Source: Bacteroidota bacterium
GTDB lineage: Bacteria; Bacteroidota; Ignavibacteria; Kryptoniales; JAKASW01
Reading direction: 5' to 3'
Assembly: GCA_021825585.1 (NCBI GenBank)
Contig: JAKAGT010000002.1
Span: 248,001 to 312,000 of the forward strand
Length of the DNA stretch: 64,000 nt
Part shown: piece after piece, positions 20,686 through 27,362 of the stretch
Numbering within the stretch: position 1 is the first letter of the stretch
Layout: every line of letters begins with the position of its first letter
The notes under the pieces: model-generated
What the model was told of the DNA's origin: nothing
What the model saw: only the letters and a program-made list of their open reading frames with translations
Databases searched by the model: none
Made by a program: the position numbers and the translations under genes

Positions 20686-22917
20686 ATGAGAAAGCTCTTT
20701 GCAAAAGTATTACTCCAACTGACTTTGTTGTCAGTTGCTTCCCTAACCCTCTGGAGATGCGCGCCGTCGATTTATTACGTGAAGCCGACCGACTGGGAAA
20801 AGCCGCAAAGGCAGGACTCAACTATCGCGTACTACTCCCAATATATCAAGGGTTGGAAAATATTCGTCGACCCGGGACACGGCGGTGCGGACCGATTCGG
20901 TCACGGTCCAACGGGTGAGACCGAGGCAGACATCAATCTTCGCGTCGGACTCGCATTGCGGGATTACCTGACACGTGCGGGGGCGATCGTCTTCATGTCG
21001 CGCACGAAAGATACAACTGTGAGCCTCCTCGACAGGCCGAAGATGGCGGCGGAAGACGGCGCGGACATTTTTATTTCAATTCATCACAATGCCACAGGCG
21101 GGCCCGAAAGATATCCGCCGCTCAACTATACCTCTACATGGTACCACGCGGTCAAAGGCGACAGCGCTTACACGCCCGCTGACCACGACCTCGCAAGATA
21201 TGTCGAGAGAGATCTGGCCTACGCGATGGGAAATCCCGAGCCGAACTTCTTTTCGTTCGACGGGACATTGTCCGACTACCTCGTTTATCCGCTTGCGGGC
21301 TTTGCAGTGCTGAGACATTCCAAGATCCCAGCCATACTGACCGAATGTTCATTTTTCTCCAGCCCGTATGAGGAGCAGCGTTTAAAGCACGACACGTTCA
21401 ACGAAATAGAAGCATGGGGAATTTTCAAAGGGCTTGGGAAATACCTGAAAGCAGGAATACCTCGGCTTACCTACTCCGGCGACACGTTGTTCAATAAGAT
21501 ACCGGTCAGTTTCAACATAGGCTATTCCGAGGGTGAGTTCTTCGGCGGGAAGTACGCAATTGATAAAAAGTATCTGAAAGCGGAGATAGACGGCAAACCT
21601 GTGAACGCAGTCTTCGACAGCGACTCGGACAGAATTTCCCTAACGTCGACGACCCTCCTTCCCGGAAGACACTACCTCAGCGTCGTCATAAAAAACGAAG
21701 AAGGCAACCACTCGTTCCCCTTCCTTAGACATTTCTACTATGTTCCCCCGCCCGCAGAGATCAGCGCGTTAGTGAACCCCGATACACTTTCCGTGAAACC
21801 CACGCGTTTTTTCACGCGCGTCGTCGTGAGATCCGCTGATAATTACAACATTTCTGATTTTGTCAACCCGGCAGCAGCCGTAACGAATGCGACAGCAGAC
21901 ACGACCTTCCACAGCGACGGAGCTATCTACACAATTTTCAGCAAGTCCGATTCCAGCACGCCCGTAATAAGGTTTACGCTGGACACTCTGGATACAATCA
22001 TCAGTCCTGCCGTCGGAAAGTACATCTCTGTCGGAACAATTTCGGTGAGATCATTGAGCGGAGACCCGATCGGCGGTGCCGTGATATGTACGGGAAGTAA
22101 GGTGATCGCCACCTCCCTTGCGAATGGGTTTGCATCTTTTAAATATGACGGAGTGCCATTGAGCGTGAGCCTTCCTGGCTATTATATACAGACATGCAAC
22201 ACAATTCCCGAAGCGCCGATCAAATTGACTCCCATTGCCGACAGTCTGCTGATTGGGAAGACGATCCTTATCGATCCCGCCTTCGGAGGAGAAGACAGCG
22301 GGCCGTCCTCAGGTTCACTTACCGCCGCCAGTATCGATTTGTCGGTCGCGAGAGATCTGAACGACTTGCTCCGAAGCTTCGGCGCGAACTCCCATCTTGT
22401 TCGGAGCACGGACACGACATTGACAATCGAACAGCGTGCAGATCTCTCCAGGGGCTATTCCAGAGGATTTTACATCTCAATCTCTGCTGTGAACCCCGTC
22501 CCGAAATTTTCCGTGACAATTTATCCAAGCATCGCCAACCGCAGATTAGCCTCAACGCTTCAGGCATCTCTCAGCGTGGAATTCGACACGACCGGCACGG
22601 CTATTTCCCGCAACGGCATCTTCGAACTGGCAGCCCTCAGCACTGTCGGGGTCGAACTCCCGTCGCCTATCACAACCTTCTACTCAGAAGAGGAACTGGA
22701 CCGGCAAAGCACCGAAATTGCGTGGAGAATTCTCGACGGTATGCTCGGTTATTATGGTTATTTCAAATCATTCAGCAAGAGCGATTACACAAGATTGGAT
22801 GAGGTTCTAAACCTTCCGATGTCCGGCGGCAAAGTCTTTTCCGTTAATCCGTATCAACTAAGACTGATAAATACACATCTTCTCCAGGAATATAAAAAAG
22901 GAAATGAGGACAAATGA
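20686..22917 (+). CDS. Probable lipoprotein N-acetylmuramoyl-L-alanine amidase with a second, inactive amidase-like domain
   Basis: A 743-residue envelope protein. The N-terminus has a hydrophobic stretch ending LTLWRC, a plausible lipobox at Cys25. The first Amidase_3 domain (residues ~57-255) has the full zinc set: His65 in DPGHGG, Glu80, His133 in SIHHNA and catalytic Glu220 in ILTECSFF. A beta-rich middle follows (~260-510). Residues ~525-735 repeat the amidase fold pattern, but DPGHGG has become DPAFGG (Phe533 for His), SIHHNA has become SISAVN, and the Glu is lost, so this copy cannot bind zinc. It should cleave the peptide from muramic acid; the second copy may bind glycan. Its stop is one base from the spmA start. 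Confidence 0.88.
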   Translation: MRKLFAKVLLQLTLLSVASLTLWRCAPSIYYVKPTDWEKPQRQDSTIAYYSQYIKGWKIFVDPGHGGADRFGHGPTGETEADINLRVGLALRDYLTRAGAIVFMSRTKDTTVSLLDRPKMAAEDGADIFISIHHNATGGPERYPPLNYTSTWYHAVKGDSAYTPADHDLARYVERDLAYAMGNPEPNFFSFDGTLSDYLVYPLAGFAVLRHSKIPAILTECSFFSSPYEEQRLKHDTFNEIEAWGIFKGLGKYLKAGIPRLTYSGDTLFNKIPVSFNIGYSEGEFFGGKYAIDKKYLKAEIDGKPVNAVFDSDSDRISLTSTTLLPGRHYLSVVIKNEEGNHSFPFLRHFYYVPPPAEISALVNPDTLSVKPTRFFTRVVVRSADNYNISDFVNPAAAVTNATADTTFHSDGAIYTIFSKSDSSTPVIRFTLDTLDTIISPAVGKYISVGTISVRSLSGDPIGGAVICTGSKVIATSLANGFASFKYDGVPLSVSLPGYYIQTCNTIPEAPIKLTPIADSLLIGKTILIDPAFGGEDSGPSSGSLTAASIDLSVARDLNDLLRSFGANSHLVRSTDTTLTIEQRADLSRGYSRGFYISISAVNPVPKFSVTIYPSIANRRLASTLQASLSVEFDTTGTAISRNGIFELAALSTVGVELPSPITTFYSEEELDRQSTEIAWRILDGMLGYYGYFKSFSKSDYTRLDEVLNLPMSGGKVFSVNPYQLRLINTHLLQEYKKGNEDK

Positions 22918-22918
22918 G

Positions 22919-23869
22919 ATGCTGAATTACGTTTGGCTCGGATTAATAGTAATTGGAGTTCTCGCGGCAGCAGGCAGCGACATTTATGACGCATCGACCA
23001 ATCGGTACCGCAATGGAGAGCAGTTCGAACTTCAGTACGACAGCACCTCCGCAAACGCGGCGGTCGTGAGCTACAGCAGGCAATACTTCGATAAGTTCTA
23101 CGGGGTACAAATAGAGGCAACCGATACACTCAGCTTCCCTGCCGCAATCACAAACAACTCGATGCAAATAAAGCTGGGCGATAAAACGCCGGAACTATGG
23201 CAGACCGTCGCTAAGACTGCGGACAATCCAAAGGAGATTACGGCGACTATAGTGAAAAGGAGCGGGAAAAGCTTATTTATCCTTCTTCCTGTCACAAATC
23301 TCGTCCGAACGAAGGCCGTCCTCGATGCGGTGATAAGCTACAGTTCGCTGGCAGTTGAGATTGCCATCGGACTTATCGGCGTCATGGCATTCTGGCTCGG
23401 GATAATGAAGCTTGCCGAAGACAGCGGTCTCATAAAAATCATAGCCCGGATGATGAGGCCGATAATGACGCGGATCTTTCCCGAAATACCGCCCGACCAC
23501 CCGGCAATCGGAGCGATGATAATGAACATTGCGGCAAACATGCTGGGGCTCAGCAACGCCGCAACTCCGTTCGGCCTGAGAGCCATGGAAGAGCTCGACA
23601 GCCTGAACCCGCAAAAAGGAACGGCGACTAACGCTATGGTCACTTTCCTCGCCATAAACACTGCGGGCCTGACACTCATTCCGGCAACGGCCATAGCGGT
23701 ACGGGCGGCCATCGGTTCGAAGGATCCGACCATCATCTTATTAACGTCGTTCTTCGGAGCCGGTCTTGCAACCATCGCCGGAATAGCCGCCGCGAAGATA
23801 TTGCAGAGGCTGAAAGTGTACCGATTCGACAAGACGACTCCTGAGAGTCCGGAAGTGAGGGGAAAATGA
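22919..23869 (+). CDS. spmA: SpmA-like nucleoside-recognition (gate) domain membrane protein
   Basis: Homologous to Bacillus spore maturation protein A, despite no sign of sporulation here. It has 316 residues from ATG 22919. One N-terminal membrane helix (YVWLGLIVIGVLAAAG) is followed by ~100 polar residues that are probably periplasmic and are absent from the ~196-residue Bacillus protein. Then come several helices with the family motifs MGxxxLAED-like GIMKLAEDSGL, AANMLGLSNAATPFGLRAMEEL and FLAINTAGLTLIP. An earlier ATG (22904) overlaps the amidase end. Its partner spmB overlaps by four bases. Coupling to an amidase suggests a cell-wall role. Confidence 0.88.
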   Translation: MLNYVWLGLIVIGVLAAAGSDIYDASTNRYRNGEQFELQYDSTSANAAVVSYSRQYFDKFYGVQIEATDTLSFPAAITNNSMQIKLGDKTPELWQTVAKTADNPKEITATIVKRSGKSLFILLPVTNLVRTKAVLDAVISYSSLAVEIAIGLIGVMAFWLGIMKLAEDSGLIKIIARMMRPIMTRIFPEIPPDHPAIGAMIMNIAANMLGLSNAATPFGLRAMEELDSLNPQKGTATNAMVTFLAINTAGLTLIPATAIAVRAAIGSKDPTIILLTSFFGAGLATIAGIAAAKILQRLKVYRFDKTTPESPEVRGK

Positions 23870-24405
23870 TTAAGGACATCCTGCAAGCTCTTTCGATCAT
23901 CGCAATACCTCTGATCATAGCTGTCTTTGTAATCTATGCGGCAAGAAAGAAGGTACCCGTCTACGAGAGCTTCGTCAGCGGTGCAAAAGGCGGATTTGAA
24001 GTCGCAATAAAGATCATCCCATACCTCGTTGCGATGCTCGTGGCGATCGGAATCTTCCGTGCGAGCGGAGCGATGAGTATTTTTGTTGGCGCACTTTCAC
24101 CGTTGGCGCACCTGATAGGGATGCCGCCCGAAGCCCTGCCCATGGCTCTATTAAGGCCCCTGAGCGGCAGCGGATCGCTCGGTCTCATGACCGACATAAT
24201 GAAGAGATACGGACCGGACTCGTTTATCGGCGTGCTTGTTTCGACAATGTACGGAAGCAGTGAAACTACTTTCTATGTCATTGCTGTTTATTTTGGTGCG
24301 GTAAACATCTATCGCACCCGTCACGCGGTGGCTGCGGGGCTCATAGCAGATGCCGTCGGTATGTTGGGTGCGTTACTGATTTGCAGGATATTGTTCGGAA
24401 GTTGA
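23866..24405 (+). CDS. spmB: SpmB-like nucleoside-recognition (gate) domain membrane protein
   Basis: A 179-residue integral membrane protein homologous to spore maturation protein B. The family segments VPVYESFVSGAKGGFEVAIKI, IFRASGAM and ALMRPLSGSGSLG-like ALLRPLSGSGSLG are present, followed by STMYGSSETTFYVIAVYFG. Start ATG 23866 overlaps the spmA stop as ATGA. SpmA and SpmB probably form one complex; in Bacillus they affect spore core dehydration, but in non-spore-formers the transported substrate is unknown. Length and helix pattern are normal. Confidence 0.9.
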   Translation: MIKDILQALSIIAIPLIIAVFVIYAARKKVPVYESFVSGAKGGFEVAIKIIPYLVAMLVAIGIFRASGAMSIFVGALSPLAHLIGMPPEALPMALLRPLSGSGSLGLMTDIMKRYGPDSFIGVLVSTMYGSSETTFYVIAVYFGAVNIYRTRHAVAAGLIADAVGMLGALLICRILFGS

Positions 24406-24427: not shown

Positions 24428-25759
24428 ATGAGACTCGTTTTTGCAATAGCTATAACTATAGTTGTACTCGGATCCTCCGCATGCGCACAGAATTACAGTC
24501 AGCCCGTTTTTCCACCGGACCAGAATCAAATATCGGGAGGTCTCGGAATAACATGGATTACCGACAACGGAGGAGAACCTATTCCCTATTATTCGATAGG
24601 AGTCCTTCCCGACTTGTCGTTCGGGAAATTAGGAGTCGGACTCAATTTCACCCTCCTGATTTCCAGCAATGACGGGACAATCCGCAAGGTCGACTGGTCG
24701 GATGGCGCTTACCGGAGAATAATCCGGTACGTCAGGTGGGGTCAAAAGCACGACCCGGTGTATGCCATGGCAGGCCAACTATACTCAGCGACGATCGGCT
24801 ACGGCCTCATCGTGGACAATTACGACAACAGCCCGAGTTACGACTACAGAAGAGTCGGCGCTGAGTTCGACGTTGACCTGAAGAAATTCGGCTTCGAGAC
24901 ACTGTACGGAGACTTCCAGCGTCCGGGTGTGATGGGTGGGAGAGTCTATGTGCGTCCGCTGAAGTTCTCCAGCCTGGCGGACGCTCCGGTAATCGGCGGT
25001 ATGGAACTCGGCGCGACGTTCGCCACCGATCAGAACCCCAACTCGGGTGTGATCGAGGCGGCTTACAACCAGACGACACAGCGCGACAGCGTCATCAAGG
25101 ACAAAGGCAGGATTGAAGAGTTCGGGCTCGACGCGGGATTCCCGATTCTGCGGTCCGAGTATGTCGACCTCGATGCATACTACGCCTTTGCGCAATTCAC
25201 CCACTTCGGTCACGGGACAGCGGTTGGTTTAATGGGGAATTTCCGCGGGCTCGGGCTTGCGACCGCGTCGGTCAAGATCGAACGTCAATTCATCGGCAAC
25301 CAATTCATACCGGAATACTTCGATCAGTTTTATGAGCTTGCACGATTCACGCCGAACGGCAGCATAGTCAGCAAGGCTTCTCAACTTCAGAACATGCGAA
25401 GATCGGCCGGGTGGTACGGTCAAGTCATCGTGTCCCTGATGCATAATTTCAAAATACTCGGAGGGTACCGGGGCATTGACAACGACCCTAACGGAGGACT
25501 TCTCAACCTGGAAACAAATTTCCCGAACGTGATTCCGATGATAGCCTTCCATGCGGGGTACGACAGATGGGGTGTAAGGGGATTCAGCAATCTGTTCAAG
25601 CTCGACTCGCGATCCCTCCTGTACGCTTTCGTGGGTTACAATCCTTATCCCTTCATGACGGTAGGCTTGAATTACTATTGGACGTTCATTCCGCAGAACG
25701 GGACTTATGTGGTTCAAAGATGGGTGTCGCCGGGCATCATGCTCAACTTTACCTTCTGA
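24428..25759 (+). CDS. Predicted outer-membrane beta-barrel protein of unknown function
   Basis: I do not recognise the family. The 443-residue protein begins with a signal peptide (MRLVFAIAITIVVL, cleavage likely after CAQ). It continues with alternating aromatic and polar strands rich in Gly, Tyr, Asp and Asn, and ends in GIMLNFTF with a terminal Phe, as outer-membrane barrels do. It lies 22 bases after spmB and 55 bases before a two-heme cytochrome, all in one direction. A role as a porin or receptor in the same envelope/electron-transfer set is inference from position. Confidence 0.7.
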   Translation: MRLVFAIAITIVVLGSSACAQNYSQPVFPPDQNQISGGLGITWITDNGGEPIPYYSIGVLPDLSFGKLGVGLNFTLLISSNDGTIRKVDWSDGAYRRIIRYVRWGQKHDPVYAMAGQLYSATIGYGLIVDNYDNSPSYDYRRVGAEFDVDLKKFGFETLYGDFQRPGVMGGRVYVRPLKFSSLADAPVIGGMELGATFATDQNPNSGVIEAAYNQTTQRDSVIKDKGRIEEFGLDAGFPILRSEYVDLDAYYAFAQFTHFGHGTAVGLMGNFRGLGLATASVKIERQFIGNQFIPEYFDQFYELARFTPNGSIVSKASQLQNMRRSAGWYGQVIVSLMHNFKILGGYRGIDNDPNGGLLNLETNFPNVIPMIAFHAGYDRWGVRGFSNLFKLDSRSLLYAFVGYNPYPFMTVGLNYYWTFIPQNGTYVVQRWVSPGIMLNFTF

Positions 25760-25814: not shown

Positions 25815-26222
25815 GTGAAAAGAACGTGGATTATTGTCACTGCCCTGATTCTGATCGGACTTGTCAGCCTGTTTTCGCATAATATTGTCTTTGCCAAACA
25901 GAAGCCCGAACCATCCTTTGCAAAGAACCTGCAGGTGCTGACCTTCCTGAAATCGAAGAAGGAATTGAAGAGCTGGATGGACATGATCAAGCAGAGCCTC
26001 GGCGTCAATTGCAGCTACTGCCACAACACTCAAAACTTCGCCAGTGACGCCAAGGTACCGAAGCGCCGGGCGCGAATGATGCTCAAAATGCTCGTCCAGA
26101 TCAGGCAAGAGTATTTCTCATTCCCCGACGCAAAGAAACCGACTTGCTATACGTGCCATCAGGGACATAAGGTTCCTGTAAACATGCCCCCGGGCGGCTT
26201 CAAGAATTTCAGCGACAACTGA
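25815..26222 (+). CDS. Exported two-heme c-type cytochrome (reaction-centre cytochrome-like family)
   Basis: A 135-residue periplasmic protein starting at GTG 25815, with GGAGAAG upstream. Residues 1-28 are a signal peptide or anchor (IIVTALILIGLVSLFSHNIVFA). Two heme attachment motifs, CSYCH (~71) and CYTCH (~118), are present. The preceding MDMIKQSLGVNC and the following NFASDAKVPKRRARMMLKM match the CytoC_RC-type family, in which a Met upstream of CxxCH is an axial ligand. No other photosynthesis genes are visible, so it is likely a general electron carrier. Its stop is six bases from the heme-porin gene. Confidence 0.88.
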   Translation: MKRTWIIVTALILIGLVSLFSHNIVFAKQKPEPSFAKNLQVLTFLKSKKELKSWMDMIKQSLGVNCSYCHNTQNFASDAKVPKRRARMMLKMLVQIRQEYFSFPDAKKPTCYTCHQGHKVPVNMPPGGFKNFSDN

Positions 26223-26228
26223 TAATTC

Positions 26229-27362
26229 GTGAAAGGCCAAAGGTGTTACGGCTTGCAAAATTGTAACCGTGGAACGACACTGCTGGCTCTGTTCCTCTTC
26301 CTGGCAACTGCCAATTCCGTTTTCGCACTCCCGCGTTTTGCGATCCTGGAGGGAGAACAGTGTATCAACTGCCACATTAACCCGACTGGCGGTGAGCTCC
26401 GGAGTCCGGAAGAGGCGTCCGACTTCATGAACAGCCATCTCAGTTTTGTGCAGGACCACGGTGGTGGATTCAATTTTGACCCACACCTCGGAGAGGATAT
26501 TCTCATAGGCGGGGATGTAAGGTTCCAATATCTCTACGACGGCCAGATGAAGAAGACTACTTTCCAATCTATGGAAGGCGCCATCTATTCTGCAATCCAC
26601 CTGTACACATCGACGAGGTTATACGTCAAATATGATTTTGTGAATTCGGCTTACGAAGCGTACGGGCTGTACAATTTCAATCAGGATAACTCATACGTGA
26701 AAGTCGGCGCCTTTTCGCCTTCCTACGGGATCAGGCTCGACGACCACACCGCTTACACGCGCGGCGGCAACTTCGGTCTTCTGCAGGGAATTCCTCTTCT
26801 GGGATTAATCTTCTCTCCTGATTACCGCGACCTCGGCGTGGAACTCGGCTCGAAGTTCGGCAGGCTCTTCGTCACGGCCGACCTGACGAACGGGAACGGT
26901 CTTGCCAACTACGATTTCAACTCCCGGAAGGCGCTCATCGGCAGGGCGGAGTACATGACCCATGGTTTTTTGAATCTGGTGATCGGAGCTTCAGGATATT
27001 TCAGCGGCGGCACCAAGATGTGGGGTGCTCACGCGGGAATCGGTATAGGAAAGCGGCTTTCCATCCTGGGGGAATTTGACTGGGCAAGGTCGCTTCCTAC
27101 GGTCCTTCCCGTTAATTCGTTGTCGAATGCGTCTTTTGTCGAGCTGAGCTACTATTTTGCTAGGGGCCTGTTCGGAGTCGCAAGATTCGATTACTTCAAA
27201 CAATACCCCGGCGGACCGACTTACTACAGGTACATCCTGGGAGCGGATGTCTACCCGATCCCCCACATCGACTTAATACCGCAAGTCCGTTTCAACACCA
27301 CTAACGTGGTCGGCGCCCCGCAGCCCGTGGAGGCGCTGATACAGTCGCACGTGTATTTCTGA
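26229..27362 (+). CDS. Outer-membrane porin-like protein with one N-terminal heme c motif
   Basis: A 377-residue predicted barrel. A hydrophobic signal (TLLALFLFLATANSVFA) is followed at once by FAILEGEQCINCHINPTGG, a CxxCH heme-binding site, and then ~300 residues of porin-like strands (for example LYVKYDFVNSAYEAYGLYNF) ending in HVYF. A heme inside a single-chain barrel suggests electron transfer or redox sensing at the outer membrane. GTG 26229 is the furthest in-frame start and has no clear ribosome-binding site; a TTG eight codons in (26253) is an alternative. The adjacent two-heme cytochrome is the natural partner. Family not named; function inferred. Confidence 0.8.
   Translation: MKGQRCYGLQNCNRGTTLLALFLFLATANSVFALPRFAILEGEQCINCHINPTGGELRSPEEASDFMNSHLSFVQDHGGGFNFDPHLGEDILIGGDVRFQYLYDGQMKKTTFQSMEGAIYSAIHLYTSTRLYVKYDFVNSAYEAYGLYNFNQDNSYVKVGAFSPSYGIRLDDHTAYTRGGNFGLLQGIPLLGLIFSPDYRDLGVELGSKFGRLFVTADLTNGNGLANYDFNSRKALIGRAEYMTHGFLNLVIGASGYFSGGTKMWGAHAGIGIGKRLSILGEFDWARSLPTVLPVNSLSNASFVELSYYFARGLFGVARFDYFKQYPGGPTYYRYILGADVYPIPHIDLIPQVRFNTTNVVGAPQPVEALIQSHVYF

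Follow-up and report, generated by a model that had tools for sequence, protein, structure and literature searches.

Cyc2 joins a one-heme cytochrome to a porin for which 16 strands are predicted, and experiments have shown that it binds heme and oxidises Fe(II) (Keffer et al., PMC8406198, here and below as excerpted). Its CXXCH is flanked by two motifs, AXPXFAR[Q/K][T/Y] five residues upstream and PXL about four residues downstream, and the published model requires its substrate to come into the pore; the excerpted text treats Fe(II) oxidation as unverified across a large part of the Cyc2 tree (PMC8406198). Cyc2 homologues have been reported in Ignavibacteriaceae and Bacteroidetes, in the excerpted text without motif detail (PMC6344600). 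A sequence-only reading of the DNA analysed here had described known porin-cytochrome conduits as separate multiheme proteins threaded through a porin. As a generalisation this is not supported, since Cyc2 is an experimentally studied fusion of a one-heme cytochrome and a porin (PMC8406198), and this very genome also encodes a Cyc2.

Here we describe a gene from the window, the whole 64-kb stretch of DNA that was analysed. On balance, its product is probably a single-chain, one-heme outer-membrane electron-transfer barrel that is related to Cyc2, belongs to a separate family and is paired with a periplasmic two-heme cytochrome. No description of this barrel family was found in the open-licence PMC text searched, which included parts of PMC10654088, PMC7399161, PMC6344600, PMC12442345 and PMC5492636.

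A predicted heme-bearing barrel gene adjoins a two-heme cytochrome gene

CxxCH occurs in only two of the 54 non-overlapping open reading frames of at least 90 aa in the window, and these two are adjacent. Because the two are neighbours and the motif recurs in 89/89 homologues of the barrel protein, the pairing of heme motifs appears to be more than chance. The features of the locus are as follows.

24428–25759, + strand: barrel-like protein without a heme motif, upstream in 4/4 genus loci examined (52–82% identity)
25815–26222, + strand: partner two-heme c-type cytochrome of the non-photosynthetic CytoC_RC kind, with an N-terminal signal or anchor (PF02276, 57.1 bits; NF033196, 78.7 bits)
26010–26024, + strand: CSYCH, partner heme site 1 (residue 66), by motif reading
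26145–26159, + strand: CYTCH, partner heme site 2 (residue 111), by motif reading
26229–27362, + strand: predicted heme-bearing outer-membrane barrel gene, by open reading frame (GTG start, TGA stop, 377 aa)
26229–26327, + strand: signal peptide of the barrel protein, residues 1–33, with cleavage at about A33/L34, by eye from the alignment
26361–26375, + strand: CINCH, predicted heme c attachment motif, residues 45–49, within the plug segment LPRFAILEGEQCINCHINPTGGELR

As the sequence-only reading had noted, the barrel protein carries one CxxCH right after its signal peptide; CINCH starts 11 residues past the likely cleavage site and is the single such motif in the 377 aa. Homologues support no part of the first ~15 residues, so TTG at 26253 is a possible alternative start. 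The 377-aa protein matches no Pfam family, and its barrel part alone has no match among solved structures in the PDB. With its signal peptide, the protein is long enough for the FeGenie Cyc2 rule of at least 365 aa.

The partner cytochrome likely starts at GTG 25815 (135 aa) rather than at 25707, the start of the longest open reading frame, and its TGA stop (26220–26222) is separated from the barrel gene by the six bases TAATTC, the spacing given in the sequence-only reading. Its NF033196 score of 78.7 bits stands against a curated cut-off of 70, and PF02276 (CytoC_RC) is also above its cut-off. Nearly all PDB relatives of the partner are photosynthetic reaction-centre cytochrome subunits. A two-heme gene lies upstream of the barrel gene in 13/13 genomes of the window's genus, and all ten further partners submitted, from the other 12 genomes, exceed the NF033196 cut-off, as does the window's own. 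A second two-heme cytochrome copy is present elsewhere in 12/13 genus genomes, including the window's own, and a sister family encodes a 38–43% identical two-heme cytochrome in 6/7 genomes and the barrel in 0/7. These second copies and the barrel-less sister family count against an obligate pairing of barrel and two-heme cytochrome. Among the homologues analysed, a two-heme partner adjoins the barrel in the window's genus alone.

The upstream barrel-like protein (24428–25759) gives a partial match (NF047543; Leptospira ImpL63 model). Two consecutive Gate-domain genes, which we take to be SpmA/SpmB-like, precede the cytochrome genes at 22904–24405 and are kept in the genus loci examined. We considered the 24428–25759 barrel, the SpmA/SpmB-like genes and an amidase as parts of the system and rejected them; they are genus neighbours that nothing ties to electron transfer.

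The heme motif is invariant and three residues are candidate distal ligands

Family counts are based on 89 of 90 distinct homologues extracted from the fetched loci; one (L027) was left out, as its locus is largely masked. The second CxxCH of L027 is also a normal plug. Exactly one CxxCH, just past the signal peptide, is present in 89/89 usable homologues, and judging from this conservation the heme site of the family is no accident. The sequence-only reading had staked its proposal on conservation of CINCH and on the presence of cytochrome c maturation genes. Both are found, with CxxCH kept throughout the family and, in the genome, four matches to PF01578 and one to PF03918 above cut-off.

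Beyond the heme motif, all 89/89 homologues share only five glycines and Met115; Arg98 is found in 88/89 and Arg354 in 84/89. Three positions are candidates for the distal heme ligand.

26571–26573, + strand: Met115, the only non-glycine invariant residue outside the heme motif (89/89)
26739–26747, + strand: Asp171-Asp172-His173, in a loop that is probably extracellular, candidate for a heme ligand or a metal site (D171 80/89, D172 86/89, H173 86/89, with Met in 2)
27348–27350, + strand: His374, third candidate, of inward parity in the last strand (His 85/89, Lys 3, Tyr 1)

The strand parity of Met115 reads outward, which counts against a ligand role. Any of Met115, His173 and His374 could be the distal ligand, and no single one stands out.

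The family has a beta-barrel signal and is remotely homologous to Cyc2

In the family alignment, hydrophobic alternation exceeds the threshold at 79 positions, against a mean of 19.7 and a maximum of 46 in 200 shuffles. The C-terminal residue is F/W/Y in 77/89 homologues and F/W/Y/L/I in all 89, and the conserved charged residues Asp96, Arg98, Glu205, Glu282, Arg354 and His374 fall on the inward parity. The script finds 12 strand segments; loops and turns read by eye suggest 16. The two readings also differ at Asp-Asp-His 171–173, which by eye lies in a long third outer loop, whereas the script reads 164–172 as alternating. An AlphaFold model made from two sequences, those of the window and L033, reached a pLDDT of 28.7 and was discarded; L033 is apparently the same contig as G006:C28 and thus no independent relative. 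Against the PDB, the family profile matches other cytochromes weakly and at the N terminus only (E 0.027, 0.79), and the Cyc2 profile also gives only weak matches, the best to OmpK36 and OmpC (E 0.014, 0.16). We assign the protein to the beta barrels because the beta-type alternation, the terminal residue and the profile similarity to Cyc2 barrels all point that way.

That similarity was measured against 17 Cyc2-type proteins; many of the weak N-terminal matches in our phylum search are of this type. The set was picked by eye for FAR[Q/K][T/Y], and the presence of the strict motif in 17/17 is therefore circular and is not used as evidence. In profile–profile comparison with this set, the family's plug alone reaches 97.1% probability; its barrel alone, aligned over 235 columns, reaches 90.5% (E 1.4e-6, single comparison). 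The controls were the reversed alignment, five column-shuffled alignments of the plug and five of the barrel, and a barrel of unrelated kind taken from these genomes; each gave at most 1.4%. By this profile evidence, the barrel family is remotely homologous to Cyc2 over both plug and barrel.

One might then count the barrel as a true member of the published Cyc2 family, given the same layout, a P-x9-CxxCH spacing in 80/89 members and the profile homology. We regard this as quite improbable. AXPXFAR[Q/K][T/Y] is found in 0/89 homologues, the window protein reading ALPRFAILE there, and PXL follows CxxCH in 0/89 homologues as against 11/17 of the Cyc2 set. Moreover, a tree separates the 89 family members from the 17 Cyc2-type proteins with 100% SH-aLRT, by a quick method with midpoint rooting and some long branches.

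The genome also encodes a motif-bearing Cyc2 on the same contig, ~185 kb away (G000:C39 ~88123–89592; L083:4123–5592, minus strand), with SYARQTG before its CxxCH and PQLTPFGRLFK after it. Because of this gene, the barrel family is not the organism's sole one-heme barrel. The Cyc2 gene adjoins genes for a cytochrome c and a five-heme cytochrome and individual molybdopterin, FeS (Fer4), NrfD and four-heme genes; the latter set is presumably Qrc- or ACIII-like. We consider the region a candidate electron-uptake locus. A histidine kinase and a sigma-54 regulator are encoded on its other side.

Strong matches to the barrel family fall in one class of the phylum

A protein search of 61 relatives recovered the barrel in 40, including 13/13 genomes of the genus and 0/7 of the sister family. 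A family profile built from 30 homologues and run over 395 genomes of the phylum matched 109, N-terminal-only and C-terminal-only matches included. The 67 genomes with matches at E 1e-20 or better, counted from the listing, all belong to the window's own class; outside it, we found one further barrel member (L091), interrupted by a contig end. A single-protein scan of genome contigs returned at least one barrel locus, and a search of plasmids and viral contigs yielded no relative.

Cytochrome neighbours are non-random and vary by lineage

A same-strand CxxCH gene lies within 600 bases of the barrel gene in 38/89 members, compared with 2/44 background genes of 300–560 aa (Fisher p 2e-6), and in 25/76 members once the window's genus is removed (p 2e-4), both tests counting related loci as independent. 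Barrels and cytochrome genes are thus associated beyond chance. The two-heme partner to which the sequence-only reading gave weight is constant within the genus (13/13) but is not general, as 51/89 homologues have no same-strand CxxCH gene within 600 bases; the cytochromes of these 51 may be encoded elsewhere, or the association may be lineage-specific.

The 38 partners comprise 13 two-heme CytoC_RC proteins, nine Temptin_C, six PSCyt1-like, six with 5–6 hemes, two other one-heme proteins and two unclassified (L118 and L126), which may be chance. Partner kind tracks the tree: it changes 13 times, whereas shuffled labels change 49.9 times on average. Taken by itself, the PSCyt1 group shows no clear clustering (52/500 shuffles as low). 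The nine Temptin_C loci have a one-heme Temptin_C-like protein upstream of the barrel, with a type IX secretion tail in the one run through Pfam; in the f10 lineage, the Temptin_C neighbour with this tail is probably on the cell surface. The six PSCyt1-like loci have a small one-heme cytochrome directly downstream, and 5/5 tested match PSCyt1 above cut-off, the sixth (L106) being assigned by sequence.

Two Temptin_C proteins with type IX tails (L039:8155–8820 and L092:4627–6276) carry CxxCHxxPxGGGxRNxFG; should such proteins bind heme, they would be one-heme proteins secreted to the surface. In families f10 and f12 (L041–L043, L039–L040), a gene for a small membrane protein of ~160 aa recurs next to the barrel gene on the opposite strand.

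In family f18, six loci encode a 5–6-heme protein upstream of the barrel and, one gene further down from the barrel, a one-heme cytochrome. A one-heme gene lies upstream in another two loci of this family. In L151 (L151:6897–13945), from which alone the Pfam domains of this operon come, the order is a five-heme MtrC/MtrF-domain protein, the heme barrel, a Rieske protein, a cytochrome c, a 13-heme cytochrome and a b561-NapC protein. Five of the six loci were extended: heme counts and protein lengths give this order in L154 too, L153 shares it but for a shorter last protein, and in L150 and L152 the final two genes are missing beside the operon. The last protein of L151 and L154 is a 735-aa six-heme b561-type protein, and the f18 MtrC/MtrF-domain cytochrome has a lipobox-like N terminus and collagen-like GPAGKDG repeats. 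From its gene content, this is apparently an electron-export or import operon with an MtrC-like surface cytochrome.

The neighbours also bear on whether CxxCH holds heme at all. The motif could instead serve an ordinary nutrient porin as a stabilising or gating site, by way of a disulphide or a bound metal, the two-heme gene being a chance neighbour. The NPTGGxxR part of the plug, just past CxxCH, resembles Temptin_C proteins, which counts against our preferred reading, and over half of the members have no neighbouring cytochrome gene. We nevertheless judge this alternative improbable, as the neighbouring cytochromes are of several unrelated kinds, the His of CxxCH is invariant in 89/89 members although a plain disulphide would not need it, and the homologous Cyc2 plug binds heme by experiment (PMC8406198).

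Proposed mechanism and direction of electron flow

One heme alone cannot span the outer membrane. If the protein is a one-heme electron-transfer barrel, as we favour, heme c would be attached after export at C45 and C48, with H49 as the proximal ligand, and the N-terminal plug would probably sit at the barrel's periplasmic mouth, as modelled for Cyc2. A dissolved metal ion or small redox compound would enter the barrel from outside and reach the heme; in lineages that have a surface cytochrome, this protein might dock on the barrel instead. The single heme would then relay electrons to or from the periplasmic two-heme cytochrome. The word conduit, used in the sequence-only reading, is too strong for one heme, since the Cyc2 model as excerpted requires the substrate inside the pore (PMC8406198). 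The core of that reading, a heme-bearing barrel linked to a periplasmic cytochrome as a plausible outer-membrane electron-transfer device, holds up.

The relationship to Cyc2 speaks for an inward path, in which a donor, Fe(II) for instance, is oxidised; export fits equally well, because of the f18 operon and the probably surface-located partners. In the first case, the barrel would be an oxidase equivalent to Cyc2, in which Fe(II) or another reduced small compound enters and reduces the heme, and electrons pass inward to the two-heme cytochrome. The remote homology over plug and barrel, a conserved D-D-H loop that could bind metal and a chain layout like that of Cyc2 (PMC8406198) are consistent with this. 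We hold it only tentatively, however, because the Cyc2-defining motifs are missing in 89/89 members, the genome already has a motif-bearing Cyc2 beside cytochromes and a molybdopterin/FeS/NrfD set, and Fe(II) oxidation itself is, in the excerpted text, unverified across much of the Cyc2 tree (PMC8406198).

Alternatively, electrons could flow outward, the barrel heme taking them from the periplasmic cytochrome and delivering them to an acceptor outside the cell or on its surface. The f18 operon, which runs from b561-NapC via the 13-heme cytochrome and Rieske protein to the MtrC-like 5–6-heme protein, probably at the surface, argues for this direction, as does the probably cell-surface Temptin_C neighbour in f10. 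In the window's genus, by contrast, the barrel has only the two-heme partner beside it and the window holds no other CxxCH gene; gene order, moreover, does not reveal direction. Outward flow strikes us as somewhat unlikely.

A broader version of the one-heme barrel reading is possible, though we would not yet bet on it. A second one-heme barrel family beside Cyc2 may be an outer-membrane electron-transfer step across a whole class of Bacteroidota relatives, with cytochromes that vary by lineage and a distal ligand derived from the barrel. The partner would be the two-heme cytochrome here; in other lineages it would be a small one-heme cytochrome or a heme protein secreted by the type IX system. 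In one lineage, the one-heme barrel would occupy the place expected of MtrAB in a complete chain with an MtrC-like surface cytochrome. Met115, His173 or His374 would be supplied as distal ligand by the barrel itself.

Should these proposals prove true, the class of one-heme barrels that transfer electrons at the outer membrane extends beyond Cyc2, and current Cyc2 searches, which require FAR[Q/K][T/Y], would miss this family. The family would also offer many uncultured Bacteroidota relatives a candidate route of electron exchange without multiheme conduits, and a mature protein of ~345 residues would be available for studying how a single heme serves membrane crossing. In the f18 operon, most of the other steps of the chain are encoded beside the barrel, which makes the question directly testable.

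Comparison with known systems

MtrAB, MtoAB and PioAB likewise combine an outer-membrane barrel with periplasmic c-type cytochromes, and f18 also has an MtrC/MtrF-domain protein. Here, however, the heme is predicted to lie within the barrel chain itself and there is no decaheme partner; where MtrAB and PioAB have a periplasmic partner with 8–10 hemes, the partner in the window has two CxxCH. The model PF11854, for 26-strand porins of the MtrB/PioB type, scores 18.9 bits in this genome, below its cut-off of 23. The partner belongs to the PufC-like non-photosynthetic c-type cytochromes (NF033196, PF02276), from which it differs in having only two hemes.

Temptin_C proteins (PF24784) share by eye a CxxCHxNPxGGGxRNxFG-like signature with the barrel plug, and differ in having no barrel and in carrying type IX secretion tails. 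The family also occurs in eukaryotes, and we know of no demonstration that its CxxCH holds heme.

The most informative comparison is with Cyc2, known holders of which include A. ferrooxidans, M. ferrooxydans PV-1 and Chlorobium. The barrel family shares with it a signal peptide (by eye here), a single N-terminal CxxCH, a predicted C-terminal barrel and, in 80/89 members, the P-x9-CxxCH spacing. It differs in having NPTGGxxRN after CxxCH and neither AXPXFAR[Q/K][T/Y] nor PXL, and in keeping Met115, Asp172-His173, Arg98 and Arg354 family-wide, whereas among the 17 Cyc2-type proteins no Met is invariant, nor any His other than that of CxxCH. We conclude from these alignments that the barrel family probably works like Cyc2 and is related to it, yet is not Cyc2 as defined.
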